Source: a virus. From it: DNA of 35,462 bases. The notes below the pieces were generated by a model. That model was not told the DNA's origin, did no database searches, and saw only the letters and a list, made by a program, of their open reading frames with translations. A program made the translations under genes and the position numbers. Position 1 is the stretch's first letter, and every line of letters begins with the position of its first letter. Below are positions 807 through 23,824 of the stretch, in pieces. The DNA lies in IMG/VR virus record IMGVR_UViG_3300035179_000039, positions 1 to 35,462 of that record; one strand, written 5' to 3'.

Positions 807-3800
807 GTGAAAGTGGTTAGACCAACCTTCGCATTCGGGTCGACAAGCCGACAAAGAGCCCACGACCTGCGAGACACTGCAGTCAGCAGCAAAGCCTACA
901 TCGACTCCATCTACCCATGGTGGTGGGACGAACGAGAGTTTCCCCGAAGAGCGGTCATGACCGAATGGTTCTACAATCCGCTCAAAGGCCAGCCCCGCTA
1001 CGTCGACGTCTACCATCTCCGAAACATGGCCGCAAGCGAATGGGTCCACATGTGCACAAGCACCATCATCGAAGAAGTGTGTCAAGTCCCCTGGGAGCTG
1101 GTGCCCAAACGCCCAGAGCTACGTGAGTCGCCGCCCGAACAACTCCTCTGGCAGATAGAGGATCAGACCGAATTCTTCAACCGCTGCAACGAGAACAAGG
1201 AAACCCTGACTCACATCTTGCGAGCCCTGCTTCGAGACAGCCTGGAGCTGGACGCAAGCTGCCTCGTGAAAGGCTTCAGCGAACGCAGCTATGAACGGGT
1301 GCCAGAGGGCGGCTTTATCCTCAGACCCCGAGGCCAGCGAGAACTTGTGGAGCTGTTCGCTCGAGACGGCGGCAGCTTCATGAAGGAAACGGACGTGAAC
1401 GGCATCGAGCGCCGCTTCTGGCAGTACTCGTACCTGCACCCGGCCGTCGCCCCGATCGAGTTCGACACAGATGAGATCGCCTACGGCACGCGATATCCCC
1501 GCAGCTACAGCGTCTACGGCTGGTCCGAGCTGCAGAGCATGGAGACGATTCTGAACTGCCTCATCAACAGCGCTTTCACCAACGCCACCATGTTCCAAGA
1601 ATACGCCGTGCCCTCGGGCGTCATCAGCTTCCAAGGCTCTCTCGAGGACGAACGTAGGCTCAAAGAGTATTTCACCACCGAGATCAAAGGCCGCTTCCAC
1701 AAAGTGGCCGTGCTCAACAAGGACGCCACCTTCACGCCCATCACCATGTCGAACCGAGACATGGACTTCATCAACATGCAAAAGTGGTTTAGCAGGCTTT
1801 GCTGGGCTCTGTACAAGCTGACGCCGACCGAGCTGGGCTTCCAAGACGAGATCCGAGAAACCGGCAAGGCGATGGCTGCGCAAAGCAAACTGCAGAAACG
1901 GAAGGCCGTGATGCCTGCGCTCAAGCTGATCGAGATCGTGATCAACACGCAGGTCCTCAACGAGTTCACTGACGACCTGATCTTCCAGTTCCAGTACACA
2001 GACAAAGAAGAGGAATACGCGTGGGACGAGCTGTCACTCCAGCAGCTTGACCGAGGACTCGTCACAATCAACGAGCTGCGCAAGCGCCGGAAAATGGGTG
2101 CGCCAGTCGGCTGGGGAGACCTGCCTTTCCAGCTCACCCTTGCAGGAGCTCGGCCGCCAGCCATGGGCGCACCGCCTGGGCAGCAGTCTCTCGGAGAAAC
2201 CGACATGCAGGACAACGACATGGGCAAGCAGGTGTGGGGCGGCCGCAGCACCGAAGAATACGACTTCCGAACAGACATTCCTCAGAACGTTCGCGCGTTG
2301 AACCCGTCCAGCGGTCGCTACGAGCCAGTGAAGATAGGTAACAAGTTTGACAAACGTGAACTTGAGAAAGCCGTGAGCCTCATCGAGAAGAGCTTTCAGT
2401 ACCGTCTGCAGGCGCCCCGAAAGAAGCCGCTTGACCCCTACGAAGTGCACCTAGTGCAAAACCAGATCGCCAGGCTCAAAGCGGCGATCGGAAAGATCCG
2501 CTACCCCATGGGCGCCCTAGGACCGATGGGCACCAAGCCCGACCCGCCCAGTCGAGACGGCATGCTGCTGCCGGGCGAACAGAAGCCTCGCGACGTCGAG
2601 AAGCCTCTTGGACCGAACCAGACTCCAGCGCCTTACCGCACCGGACCCTACGATCGATACCGGGGCGGAGAACAGCCAAGTAACGAGTTTGCAGGCGGAC
2701 ACGGAGCGCACAGGTGGGAAAGAGACAACACGAACATGCGAGTCAAGCCTAGCGAACGAACGGATCCACGTGGCCTAGCACCGCCTCGGAAGCCCACAGT
2801 GCCTTATCTTGACGCAGAATACCAGATCGTGCCCACGCCGAAGATTCCAGTCGGACCCAAGTACCCCCGAGACGTGCCCCCAGTGCACGGCGCCACAGGC
2901 ATGCCTCGCAAGCCTCTCACAGACGAGGAAGAAGGCGACCAAGTGGATGAGTTCACTCCTGAGGGTGTGAGGCCGAAGGGATGGGTAACTATTGGCGGTC
3001 GGCCTGTGCTCATCGGAGAAGAAGATGAAGACGGAGCGGAAGCAGGAAAAGCGCCAAAAGGCACCAAGCTGGAAGGCACCTATTACCGAGGCAGCACCGA
3101 TGGCAAATATCGAGAGTTCAGCTACTTCACCAAGGAGCAAAGGGAAGCGCAGGTGTACGCTGAGGCGAAGGGCGGCAAGGTGTCCGAACACGATATCAAG
3201 GCGCAGAATGCTTTGAAGGCAAACGACATCTGGCACGCGGGAAAGAAGCTGGGCATTCCATTCGACCGAGACAAAGATGACCCTACGAAGGTGCGGCTGC
3301 AAATTCTGAATACCGCTAAGAAGCAAGGCTACGATGCCATCGATATGGACACTTGGACTGTCGCTATCAAACCTGATGTGGTGAAAGAAACTCGAATCTT
3401 GAAGACCAAGATGACTCCGCCTCTGCCGAGCATGGGCGGCAGCAAGTACCGTCAAGTCAAATTTCTTCGTTCAATCATGCCTGAGAAGCTGGGGCTGTAC
3501 GTGGAGCCTTTCGCAGGCGGCGCCGCCCTGTTCTTCGGGCTGCCTGAGAAGCCTGCGCAGGCGGTGCTGAACGACAAGGACCCGTCTTTCCCTACGTTGT
3601 GGCGATGGATCCAGCAAGCCACACCGGAGCAGATCGAGGACCTAAAGAAGCGTCCATGGACGGCTGAGCGAGACGACTTCTTCCGGGCTAAGGACGAGTT
3701 CAAGCCCCGCAGCCTTCTTGACCGGATCTGGCAGATCCTGTACGTTACGAGACATAGCTTCAGGAACAGCAGGCGCACTTGGCGAGGCGAAGACCGAAAA

Positions 3801-4544
3801 GGCACTCACAGAAACGGCATGCCGCAATGGATCAACAGGATCGACCAGTACCGGGAGCGGTTGCAAGGCGCCACGATTGAAAACAAGGACTGGAAAGAAG
3901 TCATGCAAGAGCACGATGGGCCGGACACGTTCTTCTACATTGACCCGCCCTATGAGCAGGAGTTTGCTAGGCAGCTGCCGGCGGTGCTGGACCGAACCAA
4001 GGGCAAGTGGCTGCTCAGCTTCGGAGAAGACGAGACGCTGCAGCGAGAGCTGGAGAAACGAGGCTTCCACGTCAAGGCGCTGAACGTCACCAACATGATC
4101 AACAAGCCTGATGCAGCCACACGCACCATGCGCCAGGAGATGCTGGCCGCCAACTACCCGCTCGAGTTCGATGGCGACGTCACCTTCAAGTTCGTGGACA
4201 CCGACGTCAGCATGAAACAGCTGTTCTTCTCTGAGGGACGCGTGGTGACCAAAGGCGTGCATGACCATGAGCAAGCCCTCTCAGACAGATTGAAGCTGCT
4301 GATCCGACAGGTGCACACCGGCGCCCTAGGAAAAGAGCAAGCAGCCATCGAAGCCAAAGCAGCGATCGACCACCACATTCTGCAGGGCGTGAAAGAGGCG
4401 ACTGAAAGCGCCGTCGCCCGACAGCTCAAGAAGGAGCAAGTGACCTTGCCGCCGGAAGCCATGGCTCGAATAGAACGCCAGGCGGCGCAGCACATGGAAG
4501 ACTTCATGCGAATCTTGGGAGATGCAGAGAATGCCCAAAAGTAG
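807..4544 (+). CDS. Portal fused to ART-like domain, D12 adenine methyltransferase and helical tail
   Basis: A 1245-residue protein starting with GTG at 807 (MKVVRP). Residues 1-440 look like a portal protein: the stretch FSRLCWALYKLTPTELGF followed by a long helix KAMAAQSKLQKRKAVMPALK is the usual portal stem and crown signature. Residues about 440-745 are a Pro/Gly-rich linker. Residues about 750-865 resemble the ADP-ribosyltransferase-like domain of phage polyvalent proteins (TYYRGS, FSYFT, a conserved-looking QNAL, KKQGYDAIDMD). Residues about 875-1130 are a D12-class DNA adenine methyltransferase, with EPFAGGAALFFG (SAM binding) and YIDPPYE at 3939-3956 (catalytic DPPY). The last 95 residues are helical and may be the N-terminal part of a MuF protein. 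An ordinary portal is roughly 400-550 residues. No frame break is seen, so this is either a true fusion or a precursor cut by the prohead protease. Confidence 0.88.
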   Translation: MKVVRPTFAFGSTSRQRAHDLRDTAVSSKAYIDSIYPWWWDEREFPRRAVMTEWFYNPLKGQPRYVDVYHLRNMAASEWVHMCTSTIIEEVCQVPWELVPKRPELRESPPEQLLWQIEDQTEFFNRCNENKETLTHILRALLRDSLELDASCLVKGFSERSYERVPEGGFILRPRGQRELVELFARDGGSFMKETDVNGIERRFWQYSYLHPAVAPIEFDTDEIAYGTRYPRSYSVYGWSELQSMETILNCLINSAFTNATMFQEYAVPSGVISFQGSLEDERRLKEYFTTEIKGRFHKVAVLNKDATFTPITMSNRDMDFINMQKWFSRLCWALYKLTPTELGFQDEIRETGKAMAAQSKLQKRKAVMPALKLIEIVINTQVLNEFTDDLIFQFQYTDKEEEYAWDELSLQQLDRGLVTINELRKRRKMGAPVGWGDLPFQLTLAGARPPAMGAPPGQQSLGETDMQDNDMGKQVWGGRSTEEYDFRTDIPQNVRALNPSSGRYEPVKIGNKFDKRELEKAVSLIEKSFQYRLQAPRKKPLDPYEVHLVQNQIARLKAAIGKIRYPMGALGPMGTKPDPPSRDGMLLPGEQKPRDVEKPLGPNQTPAPYRTGPYDRYRGGEQPSNEFAGGHGAHRWERDNTNMRVKPSERTDPRGLAPPRKPTVPYLDAEYQIVPTPKIPVGPKYPRDVPPVHGATGMPRKPLTDEEEGDQVDEFTPEGVRPKGWVTIGGRPVLIGEEDEDGAEAGKAPKGTKLEGTYYRGSTDGKYREFSYFTKEQREAQVYAEAKGGKVSEHDIKAQNALKANDIWHAGKKLGIPFDRDKDDPTKVRLQILNTAKKQGYDAIDMDTWTVAIKPDVVKETRILKTKMTPPLPSMGGSKYRQVKFLRSIMPEKLGLYVEPFAGGAALFFGLPEKPAQAVLNDKDPSFPTLWRWIQQATPEQIEDLKKRPWTAERDDFFRAKDEFKPRSLLDRIWQILYVTRHSFRNSRRTWRGEDRKGTHRNGMPQWINRIDQYRERLQGATIENKDWKEVMQEHDGPDTFFYIDPPYEQEFARQLPAVLDRTKGKWLLSFGEDETLQRELEKRGFHVKALNVTNMINKPDAATRTMRQEMLAANYPLEFDGDVTFKFVDTDVSMKQLFFSEGRVVTKGVHDHEQALSDRLKLLIRQVHTGALGKEQAAIEAKAAIDHHILQGVKEATESAVARQLKKEQVTLPPEAMARIERQAAQHMEDFMRILGDAENAQK
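1910..1931 (+). repeat. 22-bp direct repeat, copy in portal gene
   Basis: These 22 bases, coding for the portal segment MPALKLI, recur exactly and in the same orientation at 33643-33664, upstream of the fibre-like gene. A match of this length is not expected by chance in 35 kb. Confidence 0.85.
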
Positions 4545-4838: not shown

Positions 4839-6020
4839 TTGAGGAACCGCCGTGAAAGGGTGCCTTGGAGTGTGCTACATATAGCTGAAGAACCGGATTT
4901 CTGGAAGAGCCTAGATGGGCTGCTGATGCGCATAGATCTGCTGGCGCAGAACCTCGCCTGGAAGTCCTACAACGAAGCCATGCAGGAAACCCTGCGCTTC
5001 GAAGGCGTCACCTGGGTGGAATGGGTCTCAGACTACACGCAGGACCCGGCGAGAGGACCATGCCTCTACTGTGATTCGCAGTCCGGACGCCGCTACCGCC
5101 TAGGCCAGTTTCTGCCTTCGCTGCCTCATCATCCGAACTGCCTACCGGGGAACGCTCTTGTATCGTCCAGTCACAGGATCACGGGTGCTACGAAACGGGC
5201 ATACGATGGAAATGTTCTCATCATCCAAACAGCCACGGGTGACCCTCTTTCCGTCACGCCAAATCACCCTATACTCACACCGCATGGATGGGTTCCTGCC
5301 AGCTTCCTGAATAAAGGCAGCTACGTAGTCTGCCAGCGCAGAAGTGAGTCTATCTTGTCCAGTAATGGGAATCATCAACAGATGCCAACCCCTATTGAGA
5401 ATGTAGCGAATGCGTTTCTCATGATGCCGACGACGCTTCGCAGCAAAGTGCCAACCGCCGCCAAAGATTTCCATGGCGACGGACGGAACGGCGAGGTCGC
5501 AATTGTAGGGACCAATCGCCACTTGATGCCTAACAGAGATGCCTCGGTCAACAAGCATCTGCGCAAATTGGCGTTCATGGAGAGAGATGCCGCTCTGATG
5601 GGTCTCCACAGTCTTGGCCAATTGCAGTTTCTCAGAAAGACTCTTCTTTCGACCACGAGTAGCATCATGAGCCGCACGAACCTGTGCAGCTCGTTGCTCG
5701 GGATTCATCTGGCGCCATTTCAGGAGTCCTGCTTCATGGCGACCACGGATCGGTACGTTGGCTTGAATCAGACGCGCTCGAACCGTTCCTCGGTCGACCT
5801 TGAAGTGCTTCGAAACCTTCTTCTCCGAGATGCCGGAAACATATTCTTTGATGAGATTGTCGATGTCGGCTGGAGAAAGTTTCATGGTCACATCTACAAC
5901 TTAGAAACATCGGCGGGCTATTTTAACGCTTCCGACATAATCGTCTCTAACTGCAAGTGTGACTGGGCTCCAATTCTTCCGACAGAAGAGGAATATGTTC
6001 GCAAAGGCATATTTCCCTAA
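4839..6020 (+). CDS. MuF-type minor head protein interrupted by an intein
   Basis: The 393-residue precursor carries a 271-residue intein (5139-5951). The spliced product would be 122 residues ending in the MuF/SPP1-gp7 signature: CLYCDSQSG, then LPSLPHHPN joined to CKCDWAPI. In this family the HPNCxC motif closes the fold of the minor head protein that sits at the portal vertex. The start is uncertain: TTG at 4839, or GTG at 4860 preceded by a GAGG at 4841. The ordinary family N-terminal helices are not here; the end of the portal fusion may supply them. No membrane segments. The antisense strand of the intein encodes a nuclease (5142-5885). Confidence 0.88.
   Translation: MRNRRERVPWSVLHIAEEPDFWKSLDGLLMRIDLLAQNLAWKSYNEAMQETLRFEGVTWVEWVSDYTQDPARGPCLYCDSQSGRRYRLGQFLPSLPHHPNCLPGNALVSSSHRITGATKRAYDGNVLIIQTATGDPLSVTPNHPILTPHGWVPASFLNKGSYVVCQRRSESILSSNGNHQQMPTPIENVANAFLMMPTTLRSKVPTAAKDFHGDGRNGEVAIVGTNRHLMPNRDASVNKHLRKLAFMERDAALMGLHSLGQLQFLRKTLLSTTSSIMSRTNLCSSLLGIHLAPFQESCFMATTDRYVGLNQTRSNRSSVDLEVLRNLLLRDAGNIFFDEIVDVGWRKFHGHIYNLETSAGYFNASDIIVSNCKCDWAPILPTEEEYVRKGIFP
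5139..5951 (+). other. Intein (Hint-domain protein-splicing element), 271 residues
   Basis: Cys1 is at 5139-5141, opening block A (CLPGNALVSSSHRITG). Block B contains TPNH at 5256-5267 followed by PILTPHGWVPA. The C-terminal blocks are FHGHIYNLETSAGYFNASD and IIVSN, with Asn at 5949-5951, followed by the +1 extein Cys at 5952. The penultimate residue is Ser and not the usual His. There is no LAGLIDADG domain in the sense frame. The central region holds KDFHGDGRNGEVAIVGTNR, which I recall as characteristic of inteins in phage MuF proteins; that recollection was not checked against a database. The endonuclease appears to be supplied by the opposite strand. Confidence 0.9.
5142..5885 (-). CDS. 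Vsr/DUF559-like homing endonuclease encoded antisense within the intein
   Basis: About 247 residues from ATG at 5885 (a GTG two codons upstream, at 5891, is possible); a GTGA sits just upstream as a weak ribosome site. Residues about 8-50 form a helix-turn-helix (GISEKKVSKHFKVDRGTVRA), followed by a basic linker. Then comes a PD-(D/E)XK/Vsr-like core: SLHERQFAQMLVDRG, HQVAIGPYNCDLAV and SVAMEIFGGGWHF, with candidate catalytic Glu in LHERQ, Asp at 5496-5498, Glu at 5469-5471 and a following His, and a basic helix (KRRRHHEKRIRYILNRGW). The C-terminal YRVIWRDGKRVTRGC is a further strand pair. The whole gene lies inside the intein, its codons exactly opposite intein codons. Vsr-like (EDxHD) nucleases are known homing enzymes. 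Confidence 0.85.
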   Translation of the reverse strand: MKLSPADIDNLIKEYVSGISEKKVSKHFKVDRGTVRARLIQANVPIRGRHEAGLLKWRQMNPEQRAAQVRAAHDATRGRKKSLSEKLQLAKTVETHQSGISLHERQFAQMLVDRGISVRHQVAIGPYNCDLAVPSVAMEIFGGGWHFAAKRRRHHEKRIRYILNRGWHLLMIPITGQDRLTSALADYVAAFIQEAGRNPSMRCEYRVIWRDGKRVTRGCLDDENISIVCPFRSTRDPVTGRYKSVPR

Positions 6021-7471: not shown

Positions 7472-7704
7472 TCCTTCAAGAACCCCCATCTCTCCATAAT
7501 TCTGTTGACTACGCCGCTCACCAAGTGCTTCATGCGGTCATAAAGGGATGCTTGATGTCGGCAGCGCTGGACATGGCTGAGAAATATGCCACAAGGCGTG
7601 TCTCGAGGAAAGACTTGTCCGCAGGTTCTGCAGGAGCGGTCCTTCTCGAGTTTCCATTTACTCGGCAAACCCCATCTGTACTCCGTCCAGCCGCTCCGCA
7701 TCAA
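7468..7704 (-). CDS. C2H2-type small zinc-finger protein
   Basis: Up to 78 residues. Contains CRTCGQVFPRDTPCGIFLSH followed by VQRCRH, that is CxxC with downstream His and Cys/His ligands, a zinc finger likely to bind nucleic acid. The start is uncertain. ATG 7704 would overlap the previous gene by 47 bases; a TTG further in ([12 protein letters not shown]) would give a short overlap. Confidence 0.65.
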   Translation of the reverse strand: MMRSGWTEYRWGLPSKWKLEKDRSCRTCGQVFPRDTPCGIFLSHVQRCRHQASLYDRMKHLVSGVVNRIMERWGFLKE

Positions 7705-8368
7705 TCTTCTTCAGGTGACGCCGGCGCTCATAGTCCTCTAGAAAGCGCACATGGTTGACCTGTGTATCTCCCGGCGTGATGGCTTTGTCCAGCTGCACCT
7801 TCCGGTAGCCAATCGTCCACTTTCCTTCTCCCGCAGAAATCGGGTCCACGGGGTAGAAGCGTCCGCCCATGAACCACTTCAGCTTCAGCCGGTGCTTCTC
7901 CGCCACCAGTTCGGCTTTCACAACTGCCTGGGTGATGGAGTCTCGAACTTCATATCCGCCGCCGAGAGTGTAGCTGCCGCACGCACGCTGCACCGATCCG
8001 GATGCTTCCACGGTTCCAGCTACGTCTAGGCCGTCCACGAATTCCTTGTGAGCTTCCTCGCTGAAGCCTTCTGGAATGATGGTGTCGACCGTGAAGTATG
8101 CAAATACTTCAAGGCTGCCCTCGGGCGCCAAGGTGACAGGCTTCTTCAGCTTCTGTCCAGTGTTCACATTGTCTCGCTGGAAGATCCTGCGGATACCTAT
8201 GTGGTCGCCTAGCAGCACCGAATCTTTCCAGCAGAGCTCTTTCAGGATGCCCGCTGGGACGGTGCGATTTACGCCAAGGCGCCCAGCTTCCTTGCTGAAG
8301 CGGTCCCTTGTGTAGATGCGGCTGGTCACAATGGTCAGCCAATACTCGTATGTCTGAGAGTCCATCAT
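7658..8368 (-). CDS. 236-residue conserved-looking protein of unknown function
   Basis: Starts at ATG 8368, which overlaps the AbrB stop (ATGA) and is preceded by GGTGACCGC. The N-terminal half contains [30 protein letters not shown] and [15 protein letters not shown], which look like a small beta-barrel, perhaps of ASCH/PUA type. The middle has a Gly-rich segment with two Cys-adjacent turns ([15 protein letters not shown]), and the end is charged. It is the longest gene of the minus-strand block and is directly coupled to the AbrB regulator. I cannot assign a function. Confidence 0.75.
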
Positions 8369-15288: not shown

Positions 15289-15735
15289 ATGACGACGACA
15301 ATAGGATCCGCAACGAAGACTGCGACAGGCAAGGTTGCGAAACTCTACGTGACGCTGGGCATGACCGAGTATTTTATCGCGGCAGGTAAGAACTGGACCA
15401 TGGATATGGGCTACCAAGAAATATTGGACTATGTGAACGGTAGCCAGGTTCCATGGGTGCTCACTGGCGGACTAGACGGTCGGTTCGAATTCGAGTGGCT
15501 GTTCACTACGGATGCGCTTCTCGCCCTCATATCGCCAGATAACACCACGTACGAGCTGCCTGAAGTCACGATCAAGGCAGATGATGTGGACACGCAAGCC
15601 AGCCCGGTGATCAAACGCGTCACCGTGACCGCTAAGATTTTCAGGCTGCGAAGAGTAGGAGAATCCGGCGGCGACGGCTCAGTCAAACTTACCGGAAGCG
15701 GCAGATTAACCTCAAAGCCACAGTTCGGTCCCTAA
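15289..15735 (+). CDS. Major tail tube protein
   Basis: A 148-residue, mainly beta protein. It begins with Thr-rich strands (ATKTATGKVAKLYVTLG), contains KNWTMDMGYQEILDYVNGSQ and a tube-like core with GGLDGRFEFEWLFTTDAL, then VTIKADDVDTQASPV and a Gly/Ser-rich end. The size, strand content and position next to neck proteins and tail chaperone support a tail tube subunit of a non-contractile tail. No sheath gene is present. Confidence 0.65.
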   Translation: MTTTIGSATKTATGKVAKLYVTLGMTEYFIAAGKNWTMDMGYQEILDYVNGSQVPWVLTGGLDGRFEFEWLFTTDALLALISPDNTTYELPEVTIKADDVDTQASPVIKRVTVTAKIFRLRRVGESGGDGSVKLTGSGRLTSKPQFGP

Positions 15736-16212
15736 GTGATACACTTGTCTGTGCAGCTTGAGATGAGTGGCGTAGACGAGGCAATCGCTGTCTACGGCAC
15801 AGCCGAGCCTGAGATTCATGACGCCATCGCAGAGGAATTCCAAGCCTTAGCGCCAGAGATTGAGCAGTACGCAAAGCTACTGGCTCCGGTGCGCACCGGC
15901 GCCTACCGAGACAGCATCTACTGCTGGGCAGACGACACCACACTGGAGCTAGGCACCTTAAGCGAGTACGGACACATCATAGAGGGCGGCAGCCTGCCCC
16001 ATGTGATTGAACCGGTCCGAGCCAAAGCGCTGCACTTCTTCACGCCGGAAGGCAAAGAAGTGTTCGCCAGGCGAGTGCTTCACCCGGGCACCTTGCCGTA
16101 CCCAGTGTTACATAATACATTTATGGCAAAGATGTTTGACATCATGCTGGCGGTCGATCGGGCGATTGAAAACGTGCTGGATCGATATCCCAGCCCATAT
16201 TACGAGCCGTAG
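15736..16212 (+). CDS. HK97 gp10-like head-tail joining protein
   Basis: A 158-residue protein starting with GTG immediately after the previous stop. The signature LLAPVRTGAYRDSIYCWADD, followed by SEYGHIIEGGSLPHVIEPV, ALHFFTPEGKEVFARRV and HPGTLPYPVLHNTF, is the family hallmark (V-[RD]-TG-x-[YL]-R-x-S, a Y-x-x-x-x-E-x-G turn, HPGT..P). These proteins help complete or join tails to heads. Confidence 0.85.
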   Translation: MIHLSVQLEMSGVDEAIAVYGTAEPEIHDAIAEEFQALAPEIEQYAKLLAPVRTGAYRDSIYCWADDTTLELGTLSEYGHIIEGGSLPHVIEPVRAKALHFFTPEGKEVFARRVLHPGTLPYPVLHNTFMAKMFDIMLAVDRAIENVLDRYPSPYYEP

Positions 16213-16225
16213 GGGGTGAGATTCC

Positions 16226-16687
16226 TTGGGACCACCTAAACTTGACATTGAGAAGGAACAGGCCAAGATTCTGGCTGCGCTGGAGAAGTCGGACAAAGAG
16301 CTGGCGGAAGAGTCTGAAGCCATGCAAGGGCTCTTGAAGAGAATAGTCATTATTGATTTGAAGATGCTGGATCAGGAAGAGCCGGTGTCGGTTAAGGCTC
16401 GGCGGCTGCTTGACCCGCAGCTGAGTGAGCTTCGAAGCATGGCTCGGAAGATAAGCCCCGACTTGACTGATATGGAGAAAGCGTGGACGGTGCAGCTGTC
16501 TGAAGAGCAGCTGGCGCAGTTCGGAGAAGTAATGGACCGATGCATCCTACTGGCTACGGGCCACACGGCTGAAACAATGCCTCTCAGCGAAGCCTTGAAA
16601 CGCACCCTGTTCATGAAGATCCTTGAACTCAGCCAGGTGAGTGACAGCCAGCTGGAAGACATCAGAAAATTTCGTCCAAAGCCCTAG
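16226..16687 (+). CDS. Tail assembly chaperone, upstream (G-type) frame
   Basis: A 153-residue protein from TTG 16226, preceded by GGGGTGA. All-helical and acidic (EKEQAKILAALEKSDKELAE and further helices), as for tail chaperones that coat the tape measure. It ends CCA-AAG-CCC-TAG, and the +1 frame is open across the stop and continues with a second helical segment, so a frameshifted 201-residue product is likely. It stands directly before the tape-measure candidate. Confidence 0.7.
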   Translation: MGPPKLDIEKEQAKILAALEKSDKELAEESEAMQGLLKRIVIIDLKMLDQEEPVSVKARRLLDPQLSELRSMARKISPDLTDMEKAWTVQLSEEQLAQFGEVMDRCILLATGHTAETMPLSEALKRTLFMKILELSQVSDSQLEDIRKFRPKP

Positions 16688-16832
16688 AGGCTTCCTGAAA
16701 TGCGCCATAGCGTTCGAGGTGTTCCATCGGTCCCTGAATGAGCTCAGCCACCTTTCAGAGCAAGAATGGGCGCTGGCTGCAGAGTACCTTAGAGAGAAAT
16801 TGGAAGTGATCAAACCTGTCAGCAGGACCTGA
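16641..16832 (+). CDS. Tail assembly chaperone, downstream (T-type) frame reached by +1 frameshift
   Basis: Open in the +1 frame relative to the upstream gene. Its 48 residues after the proposed shift (RGFLKCAIAFEVFHRSLNEL and SEQEWALAAEYLREKLEVI) are helical, like the T half of tail chaperones. An in-frame GTG at 16641 exists but has no ribosome site and would encode a poor N-terminus, so fusion to the upstream frame is the better reading. Confidence 0.65.
   Translation: MTASWKTSENFVQSPRGFLKCAIAFEVFHRSLNELSHLSEQEWALAAEYLREKLEVIKPVSRT
16682..16687 (+). other. Candidate programmed +1 frameshift site (CCC-TAG)
   Basis: The Pro codon CCC is followed by the stop TAG. A P-site tRNA slipping from CCC to CCT would let the ribosome skip T16685 and read AGA-GGC-TTC in the open frame. 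CCC followed by a stop is the kind of site reported for +1 shifting in Listeria phage PSA structural genes. Most tail chaperones use a -1 shift instead. Confidence 0.6.
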
Positions 16833-17670: not shown

Positions 17671-19371
17671 ATGGCTGGAAACCGACCTACCATAAACACG
17701 CTGACTCTCGGCGGCGCAAACGTGAAGAACGACTTCATCAGTCTTGATGTAGAGCAATCGGTTAGCCAAGTCATACCGAACGCCGTTTTGATCCTGAGCA
17801 ATCGAGGCGACAAATACAGCACTGTGGACTGGCATGATGAGCTAATTGCCATCGTGAACGGCGTGAACCTTTTCAGCGGATACATTGACACCCCGCGCAG
17901 GCCGCGTAGCAAGCGGGAAGGAGTCAAGCTGGAAGTGGTGGCGCGAGGCTACATCGCCTCTATGGCGGACGTCGTTGGCAACCTGCATTTTGTCAACAAC
18001 AAGGCAGACTACGCAGTGGCTGAAATTGTGCAAAGCTATAATGCGCTGAAAGGCTCAGCGGATCCAACTATCTCCATTGGTAGCAACCGAGCGCCCAGCA
18101 GTCAGCCGCCCTACGTCACCATGCAGCAGGAAGGCAAATCTCATATTCGCATGCTGCAGGAGCTGGGTGAGCTTCTAGGCCTGCCTGAGGCTTTCAGCGG
18201 CTACGACACCTTCTTCGACTATTATGTGAACAGCTCGAAGCAGCTCTACTTTGAGGAGATAGGGTACCGGAGCAGCGGCGTAGCCTTACTCACCGGCGAC
18301 TGCAAACGAATTGTGCCAGTGATAGATTCGCTTCCGGTACGCACTATGTTTGTGGTCTTTGGAGACCAATACTGTGGCTCGCTTCCTCTTGAGATGGAGC
18401 TTGGCTACGGCGCCCAGCATAACGGAGCCCCATGGCGTGAGGATCCATGGAGCGAGCTGAACACTGAGGACTACCTTGAGGGACCTAACTGCGTCGATGT
18501 GCAAGCCGACGCAGGGTACTATGTGACGCTGGAAGCCATCCAAAGCACGCGAGCCATATTCGCCTCTTTTGAGGACCCGTGGACCGGATACTTCTACATG
18601 CGTTTTCCTCTCGCCTCAGGCAAGTGGCCCGGGCAGGACCCGGCAGGCGGCTTCAACACCTACAACATCACCAACATCGCAGACTACCCTGACGACGACT
18701 TGGAGTACCAGGGAGAAATCAACAAGATAGGACTCTATGTGGGTTATCGCCCGGGGGTCGAACAGAACATTACCTTCAGGCTTGAAGTGGTCACCACAGA
18801 GCCCAAACTGGGAGTCGACACGGTCACCATCAAAACAGACGAGAAAAGCATTGCACCTTTAGGCGACATACCGGGCACCTGGACATGGTTCGAGCACCCG
18901 TTCGGCCCCGGCAGCGCCGTAGGCACGGGAGACGAGCAGTGGCGCCTAGTCAGCCCAACCGAGGATGCGGCGCCCTACTGGGAGAACGTGTCTGAGCTCA
19001 GGTTCTGCTTCAACTTTCCCGCATCCGGACCACTCGACAGCATCTTTTATGGAGAGATAGATGGGCTGCGGTTCGTGAAGCCTCTCGTCGTCAAGCACAT
19101 GGATGCGGCAGATACGATCGTGAAGTCGAAGCACCTGTTTGAGCCATGGGCGAAAGCCTACAGCTGGGCAAAGGCATGGGCGGCTTGTCAAGCTGAGAAT
19201 GAGCGCATGCCTCAGAAATACACTGACATCGAAACCGTGGGCAAAGTGGATATTCCGATCGCTCAGACATTCACTTTGAACGGTACAGAGATGGTGGCAA
19301 GAACCATTAAGCATAGCATATCAAAGAGAAGAGGCTGGACCAGAAGCATCAAAGGATGGGAAAAAACTTGA
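17671..19371 (+). CDS. Baseplate hub / tail-tip protein with a carbohydrate-binding-like insertion
   Basis: A 566-residue protein. Residues 1-130 resemble the gp27/gpD-type hub: SVSQVIPNAVLILSNRGDKY, IVNGVNLFSGYIDTP and KLEVVARGYIASM. Residues about 130-260 continue the hub fold. The insert at about 270-490 (VDVQADAGYYVTLEA through EIDGLRFVKPLVV) has a jelly-roll pattern like carbohydrate-binding modules. The end returns to hub sequence (PIAQTFTLNGTEMVARTIKH). The insert could give glycan binding at the tail tip. It overlaps the next gene by 16 bases. Confidence 0.7.
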   Translation: MAGNRPTINTLTLGGANVKNDFISLDVEQSVSQVIPNAVLILSNRGDKYSTVDWHDELIAIVNGVNLFSGYIDTPRRPRSKREGVKLEVVARGYIASMADVVGNLHFVNNKADYAVAEIVQSYNALKGSADPTISIGSNRAPSSQPPYVTMQQEGKSHIRMLQELGELLGLPEAFSGYDTFFDYYVNSSKQLYFEEIGYRSSGVALLTGDCKRIVPVIDSLPVRTMFVVFGDQYCGSLPLEMELGYGAQHNGAPWREDPWSELNTEDYLEGPNCVDVQADAGYYVTLEAIQSTRAIFASFEDPWTGYFYMRFPLASGKWPGQDPAGGFNTYNITNIADYPDDDLEYQGEINKIGLYVGYRPGVEQNITFRLEVVTTEPKLGVDTVTIKTDEKSIAPLGDIPGTWTWFEHPFGPGSAVGTGDEQWRLVSPTEDAAPYWENVSELRFCFNFPASGPLDSIFYGEIDGLRFVKPLVVKHMDAADTIVKSKHLFEPWAKAYSWAKAWAACQAENERMPQKYTDIETVGKVDIPIAQTFTLNGTEMVARTIKHSISKRRGWTRSIKGWEKT

Positions 19372-23641: not shown

Positions 23642-23824
23642 ATGACTCAACCCAAGATTCACTGCATGGCCGACTCCCAGTGTCCAAGACATCACAGGGG
23701 CTTCCGAATCACGAGCAAGGAAAGGTGCACAGGATGCCCCGACGCCATGGTCAAGAAGTGGGATTGGTCCGAGGGAAGAACTCTCTTGGCGGCGTATGAA
23801 GGAGAGGTGCCGGCGGAATGGTAA
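23642..23824 (+). CDS. Small Cys/His protein
   Basis: A 60-residue protein: IHCMADSQCPRHHRGFRITS then RCTGCPDAMVKKWDW. The ligands C, C, H, H, C, C suggest one zinc site. Sits 15 bases after the previous gene and overlaps the next. Confidence 0.65.
   Translation: MTQPKIHCMADSQCPRHHRGFRITSKERCTGCPDAMVKKWDWSEGRTLLAAYEGEVPAEW

Follow-up and report, generated by a model that had tools for sequence, protein, structure and literature searches.

The gene at positions 16226 to 16832 of the window, i.e. the whole stretch of 35,462 nucleotides analysed here (IMG/VR record IMGVR_UViG_3300035179_000039), appears to be a two-product gene of the tail assembly chaperone type, in which a +1 slip at UUU_C would join a G frame to a downstream T frame. 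Comparison of sequences leads us to assign this reading a probability of about 0.87. Its main support comes from the relatives of the window: T occupies the +1 frame in all seven lineages compared (window, L004, L010, L013, L014, L015 and L024), and AAA_TTT_C is the sole element common to the seven G-frame ends.

Organization of the region and identity of the gene

The features of the region are collected in Table 1. The G ORF, with GGGGGTGAG upstream of its TTG start, ends in CCC-TAG, and the +1 frame is open from 16641 to 16832, with a TGA at 16638-16640 before it; both traits had been described correctly in an earlier, sequence-only reading of the window. The same reading had proposed a +1 rather than a -1 shift, which is borne out by the -1 frame, shut around the window's G/T junction, as well as by the position of T in all lineages. 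The GT fusion is predicted to be 201 aa long.

Table 1. Features of the G/T region and of its neighbours in the window.
Feature	Position	Strand	Remarks
Probable tail tube protein	15289..15735	+	assigned by position and size alone; L004 and L014 have a homologue
Tail completion / Neck1 (HK97-gp10-like)	15736..16212	+	phrog_5, E=2.7e-7; PF04883 below cut-off
G ORF (unshifted product, 153 aa)	16226..16687	+	TTG start; stop TAG 16685-16687
GTG, sole possible T-frame start before the junction	16641..16643	+	without ribosome site
AAA_TTT_C, putative +1 slip site	16667..16673	+	invariant in 7/7 lineages; TTT_C once per tabulated +1 overlap
T domain (52 aa after the shift)	16674..16832	+	+1 frame; stop TGA 16830-16832; kept in all relatives
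CCC-TAG	16682..16687	+	unconserved; most likely G terminator only
Short tape-measure-like protein, 134 aa	16855..17259	+	putative function; follows G/T

Position and architecture fit a G/GT tail assembly chaperone, as the sequence-only reading had supposed. The two overlapping frames are flanked by neck/tail genes on one side and a tape-measure-like gene on the other, in an order found also in L004, L010, L013, L014 and L015, and the C-terminal half of the tape-measure-like protein aligns with homologues in five relatives (about 198-232 aa there). The tail tube candidate matched no family in Pfam or PHROGs. The tape-measure-like proteins of the window and of the five contigs just named measure only 134-232 aa; at ~1.5 angstrom per residue the corresponding tails would be 20-35 nm long, unusually short for G/GT viruses.

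A pair frameshifted by the same mechanism might serve a function other than tail assembly, which we consider unlikely. Such a reading draws on the searches with the window-family proteins: G and T found nothing convincing in Pfam or PHROGs, and the GT fusion, modelled by AlphaFold with moderate confidence (pLDDT 67), had no significant Foldseek match in the PDB. Among the BFVD viral models, however, the Foldseek matches include named chaperones and a 'Pre-tape measure frameshift protein G', with probabilities of 0.77-0.93 and weak E-values of 0.035-0.11 (best Foldseek E-value overall, 0.0025). Moreover, the location of the pair between neck/tail genes and the tape-measure-like gene and the sizes of the products fit a chaperone, and the +1 G/T architecture is that of the annotated chaperones of HSTV-2 and HF2.

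Relatives and conservation of the putative slip site

Relatives were sought among viral contigs by capsid-protein and tape-measure-protein scans, which yielded the six further divergent lineages, all with the region intact. The G proteins share 29-48% identity with that of L015, taken as the reference. An additional contig, L003 (IMGVR 3300035660_000060), is 98% identical to the window and has the same junction, with 1 base differing across 607 bp, while L025 was rejected as a relative, its tape measure being unrelated. A DNA pattern search for the T motif, in which the pattern was picked without regard to the slip site, gave no new members, only those already found and three chance matches (L027, L029, L030); similarly, a second capsid-protein scan returned the same contigs again and nothing further. 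Comparison with related viruses had been suggested by the sequence-only reading as a check, and the relatives do keep the +1 overlap, a -1 arrangement being present in none of the seven lineages.

Within the 16-codon overlap of the window, CCC_T is expected by chance with a probability of ~0.06 and TTT_C with one of ~0.05. Since neither is rare, the window alone cannot settle the slip site; it is settled by the relatives, because the +1 relation and TTT_C are common to every relative found, and CCC_TAG is not. The G-frame ends are aligned in Table 2. The G stop falls exactly four codons past TTT in six of the seven lineages, and the G frame of L004 runs 24 codons more. In the codon alignment of G/T the same residue is present in at least six of the seven lineages at 37 columns; among these, only the Lys-Phe pair is written with identical codons, AAA TTT, in all seven. 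In these genes TTT makes up 13% of the Phe codons and AAA 39% of the Lys codons, and outside this pair synonymous positions of the gene have been thoroughly scrambled among the lineages. The codon that would occupy the A site after TTT is CGT or CGC in the window, L004, L014, L015 and L024, and CAT in L010 and L013.

Table 2. G-frame ends of the window, its relatives and other archaeal tailed viruses.
Virus or contig	G-frame end	Remarks
Window	AAA TTT CGT CCA AAG CCC TAG	preceded by AGA
L015	AAA TTT CGC CCT ACT CCC TGA	
L010	AAA TTT CAT CCA GAC ACC TGA	
L013	AAA TTT CAT CCT CGA TCC TGA	
L014	AAA TTT CGC GGA AGC GAG TGA	
L024	AAA TTT CGC TCA GAT GAA TGA	
L004	AAA TTT CGT GAA AAG CAA CCA	no stop there
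HSTV-2	AAG TCC TTT CGC AGA GAC GGG GGC GGC GAG TAG	T in +1
Drs3 (MH674343)	AAA TTT CCT GAA GAC GGA TGA	unannotated +1 T, 23644-23793
PhiF3 (MN737622)	CAA TTT CAT CCG GAG CGA TGA	T in +1, unannotated
vir075 (BK068243)	GAC TTT CCT GAA AAC AGC TGA	T in +1, unannotated
MSTV1 (PP537965)	GAA TTT CGT GAA GAA GAA TGA	T annotated separately, GTG directly after TTTC

The relatives also limit where the shift can take place. In L010 a TGA is present in the T frame immediately 5' of the site, and the shift is therefore confined to ATC AAA TTT CAT CCA GAC ACC TGA. The T frame of the same contig has no ATG, GTG or TTG before T residue 38, nor before the conserved T helix, and in L004 these codons are absent from the T frame before the site.

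The sequence-only reading had placed the slip at CCC-TAG, where tRNA-Pro would move from CCC to CCU with TAG waiting in the A site, and had expected the junction PKP-RGFLK. We regard this as improbable. A CCC codon followed by a stop occurs as CCC_TAG in the window and its 98% identical twin and as CCC_TGA in L015, and CCC_UGA has been proven as a +1 site in Listeria phage PSA and in pheL (PMC5009743); the combination is, however, missing from the five other lineages, L004 being without any stop there, against an AAA_TTT_C which is invariant four codons upstream, and the CCT is explained by a T-frame proline preceding E/R-G. The precedent invoked, phage PSA, is valid for a +1 shift at CCC before a stop and does resemble CCC-TAG, but its sites are in capsid and tail-shaft genes, not in this gene (PMC5009743), and the conserved element of the window family is not CCC. 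CCC-TAG may still see minor use as a slip site. With the shift at AAA_TTT_C the expected junction is RKF-VQSPRGFLK, and PKP-RGFLK is probably wrong.

The TTT_C motif in other archaeal tailed viruses

Exactly one in-frame TTT_C was found per overlap in all 18 tabulated +1 pairs, and CCC_T in two of them; the +1 overlap of MSTV1, added to the 18, again holds an in-frame TTT_C. For 11 GC-rich lineages, with codon usage taken from the window and HSTV-2, the joint chance of this is ~5e-15, a figure that assumes independence and whose significance is inflated by shared ancestry. In HSTV-2 the late genes contain a single in-frame TTT_CG in 8569 codons, at the G/T site. HRTV-5, HF2, Serpecor1, HJTV-2, HRTV-14, HRTV-25, HRTV-27 and HCTV-6 likewise have an in-frame TTT_CG(C/T) and T in +1, and in the Hafunaviridae this motif sits 2-7 codons ahead of the G stop.

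Four viruses of methanogens (Drs3, PhiF3, vir075 and MSTV1; Table 2) share with the window a TTT_C that is followed, exactly four codons on, by the G stop. Their T in the +1 frame, of ~50-80 aa, is located directly 5' of the tape measure gene and begins with NF or TF, usually with a G seven to eight residues on; the window-family T has a comparable junction pattern, NF, few residues and then G. The methanogen viruses differ in their A-site codon, CCT or CAT in three of them, and in a T that cannot be significantly aligned to that of the window family, although junction and spacing look alike. Methanogen-virus T is homologous to Hafunaviridae T (hhalign 94.9%, E 4.8e-8; tblastn 5e-4), and the Hafunaviridae gene carrying this T bears the annotation tail assembly chaperone, which is also the function given for phrog_344, the family matched by Drs3 G (E 4.9e-6).

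The HSTV-2/HF2 type (Hafunaviridae, haloarchaeal myoviruses) resembles the window in having G and a +1-frame T just 5' of the tape measure gene. It differs by a longer T (77-112 aa) and contractile tails; the G and T profiles of the window family gave no significant match to those of either Hafunaviridae or methanogen viruses. As controls for the opposite direction, HATV-2, annotated as -1, and psiM2, a putative -1 user, have A_AAA_AAC and A_AAA_AAG, respectively, and the -1 frame is open in both.

Two further explanations of the overlap are each very improbable. The first is a -2 shift, which leads into the same frame and cannot be told from +1 by frame arithmetic. Mu-type tail chaperones are known to use a -2 shift. 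Five Hafunaviridae records (NC_062755, NC_062759, NC_062760, MZ334492, MZ334519) are labelled 'putative programmed translational -2 frameshift'; at AAA_TTT, however, a -2 shift would put tRNA-Phe on AAT with two mismatches, versus a perfect UUC for +1, the overlaps have no conserved homopolymer stretch that would suit a -2 slip, and the conserved in-frame TTT_CGN of these viruses indicates a +1 shift instead. Reviews, moreover, call the shift in this gene of HSTV-2 'very likely +1', and give HVTV-1 and HCTV-1/2/5 as -1 (PMC5009743, PMC8211752). The sequence-only reading had thus overstated the rarity of a +1 shift in this gene and in archaeal viruses; forward shifts account for 350 of the 2718 annotated phage shift sites in the PRFect training set (PMC10885494).

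The second is that no frameshift occurs, T being translated either from the GTG at 16641 or through re-initiation downstream of the TAG, or the overlap being a relic: that GTG does exist, and the MSTV1 depositors describe T as a separate gene with a GTG start, but in the window the sequence 5' of the GTG (...CCTTGAACTCAGCCAG) has no Shine-Dalgarno-like run, as the sequence-only reading had seen, so that it offers no credible independent start for T, the T frames of L010 and Drs3 have no ATG, GTG or TTG until deep within T or near its end, and in all lineages both frames are open and the junction codons frozen.

Proposed mechanism

Under the preferred reading, a +1 slip at UUU_C, most ribosomes would terminate at the TAG at 16685, yielding the 153-aa G. 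A minority would pause while UUU (16670-16672) is bound by tRNA-Phe in the P site and CGU occupies the A site; the tRNA would then slip by one base, from UUU to UUC (16671-16673), take GUC at 16674 as the next codon and read on in the +1 frame to give GT, with the junction ...EDIRKF-VQSPRGFLK.... tRNA-Phe, with anticodon GAA, would exchange a G-U wobble on UUU for perfect Watson-Crick pairing on UUC, and a slow A-site codon would give it time to re-pair. We infer the slip itself, its efficiency, the contribution of A-site pausing and the re-pairing. By analogy with lambda gpG/gpGT, G would coat the tape measure protein, with recruitment of tail tube subunits left to the T domain, the expected division of labour if the gene does act as a chaperone.

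UUU_CGN is a known +1 motif of influenza PA-X and of plant amalgaviruses, for which the same re-pairing has been proposed; influenza A PA-X (UCC_UUU_CGU) and the amalgaviruses share with the window the P-site codon and a CGN A site, and differ in being eukaryotic RNA viruses using eukaryotic ribosomes, in the gene concerned and in an E-site codon which is UCC rather than AAA (PMC5052127). In the window, too, UUU_C is in frame, inside the overlap and followed by a +1 downstream frame. The E-site codon of PA-X recurs in HSTV-2, where the site reads TCC TTT CGC. Chaperones that shift by -1, such as those of lambda, HATV-2 and psiM2, have the same two-product logic and gene position; the lambda type differs in slipping by -1 at X_XXY_YYZ, and is not matched by the window, whose -1 frame is closed. 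In fourteen 60-nt stretches scanned for a downstream stimulatory RNA, z ranged from -1.8 to +1.2, with no consistent structure and no stimulator detected.

Implications

A single old UUU_C +1 element, with no obvious RNA structure, may set G:GT across haloarchaeal, methanogen and uncultured-family viruses; we hold this to be slightly more probable than its opposite. The part of interest is the apparent generality of TTT_C, judged from the sequences compared: it recurs in three virus groupings, of which two have known archaeal hosts. A +1 shift in HSTV-2 had already been suggested. To our knowledge, no +1 frameshift has been demonstrated on archaeal ribosomes. Little of archaeal recoding has been mapped: in a 2021 review the proven cases amount to a single -1 shift, and those listed for viruses are all putative (PMC8211752). 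As the site is common to several groups of viruses, some with culturable hosts, archaeal +1 frameshifting becomes directly testable. If the reading is true, the UUU_C re-pairing rule would hold on archaeal as well as eukaryotic ribosomes, and the '-2' labels of the Hafunaviridae and the missing T genes of the methanogen viruses would need correction.

Virus, host and additional observations

The window, an IMG/VR virus record, comes from a tailed virus and encodes a major capsid protein of SU10 type, a gpA-type terminase and a head-tail adaptor. The sequence-only reading had taken it for an archaeal virus, a plausible assignment that is not proven in the case of this contig: the relatives encode proteasome-like and HerA-like genes, which are only suggestive of an archaeal host. 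No MCM helicase, sought as an archaeal marker, was found in six relatives, and no provirus of the window family in 84,980 genomes. In L055 a proteasome-subunit-like protein is encoded at 7582-8286 on the minus strand (PF00227, E 6.7e-9), with no match in the phage collection.

In the window, one ORF of 1245 aa (807-4544) combines a portal, a D12-class adenine methylase and a weak ADP-ribosyltransferase-like segment. A REase_MTES_1575 (EDxHD-like endonuclease) ORF, at 5142-5891 on the minus strand, lies antisense within 4839-6020 (plus strand), where intein motifs (PF14890) are found; the latter is apparently an intein into which an endonuclease gene has inserted in the opposite orientation, with the sense frame still open. 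In L014 an ORF recognized by eye as a DUF559/EDxHD-like endonuclease (18704-19080) is located between T and the tape measure gene. The tape measure ORF of this contig contains, relative to L015, an out-of-frame insert with stops (GTC TTA AGA TGA ... ATC GAT ATT GAG), which is either a broken gene or a bypass-like element of the T4 gene 60 type beside the endonuclease gene.
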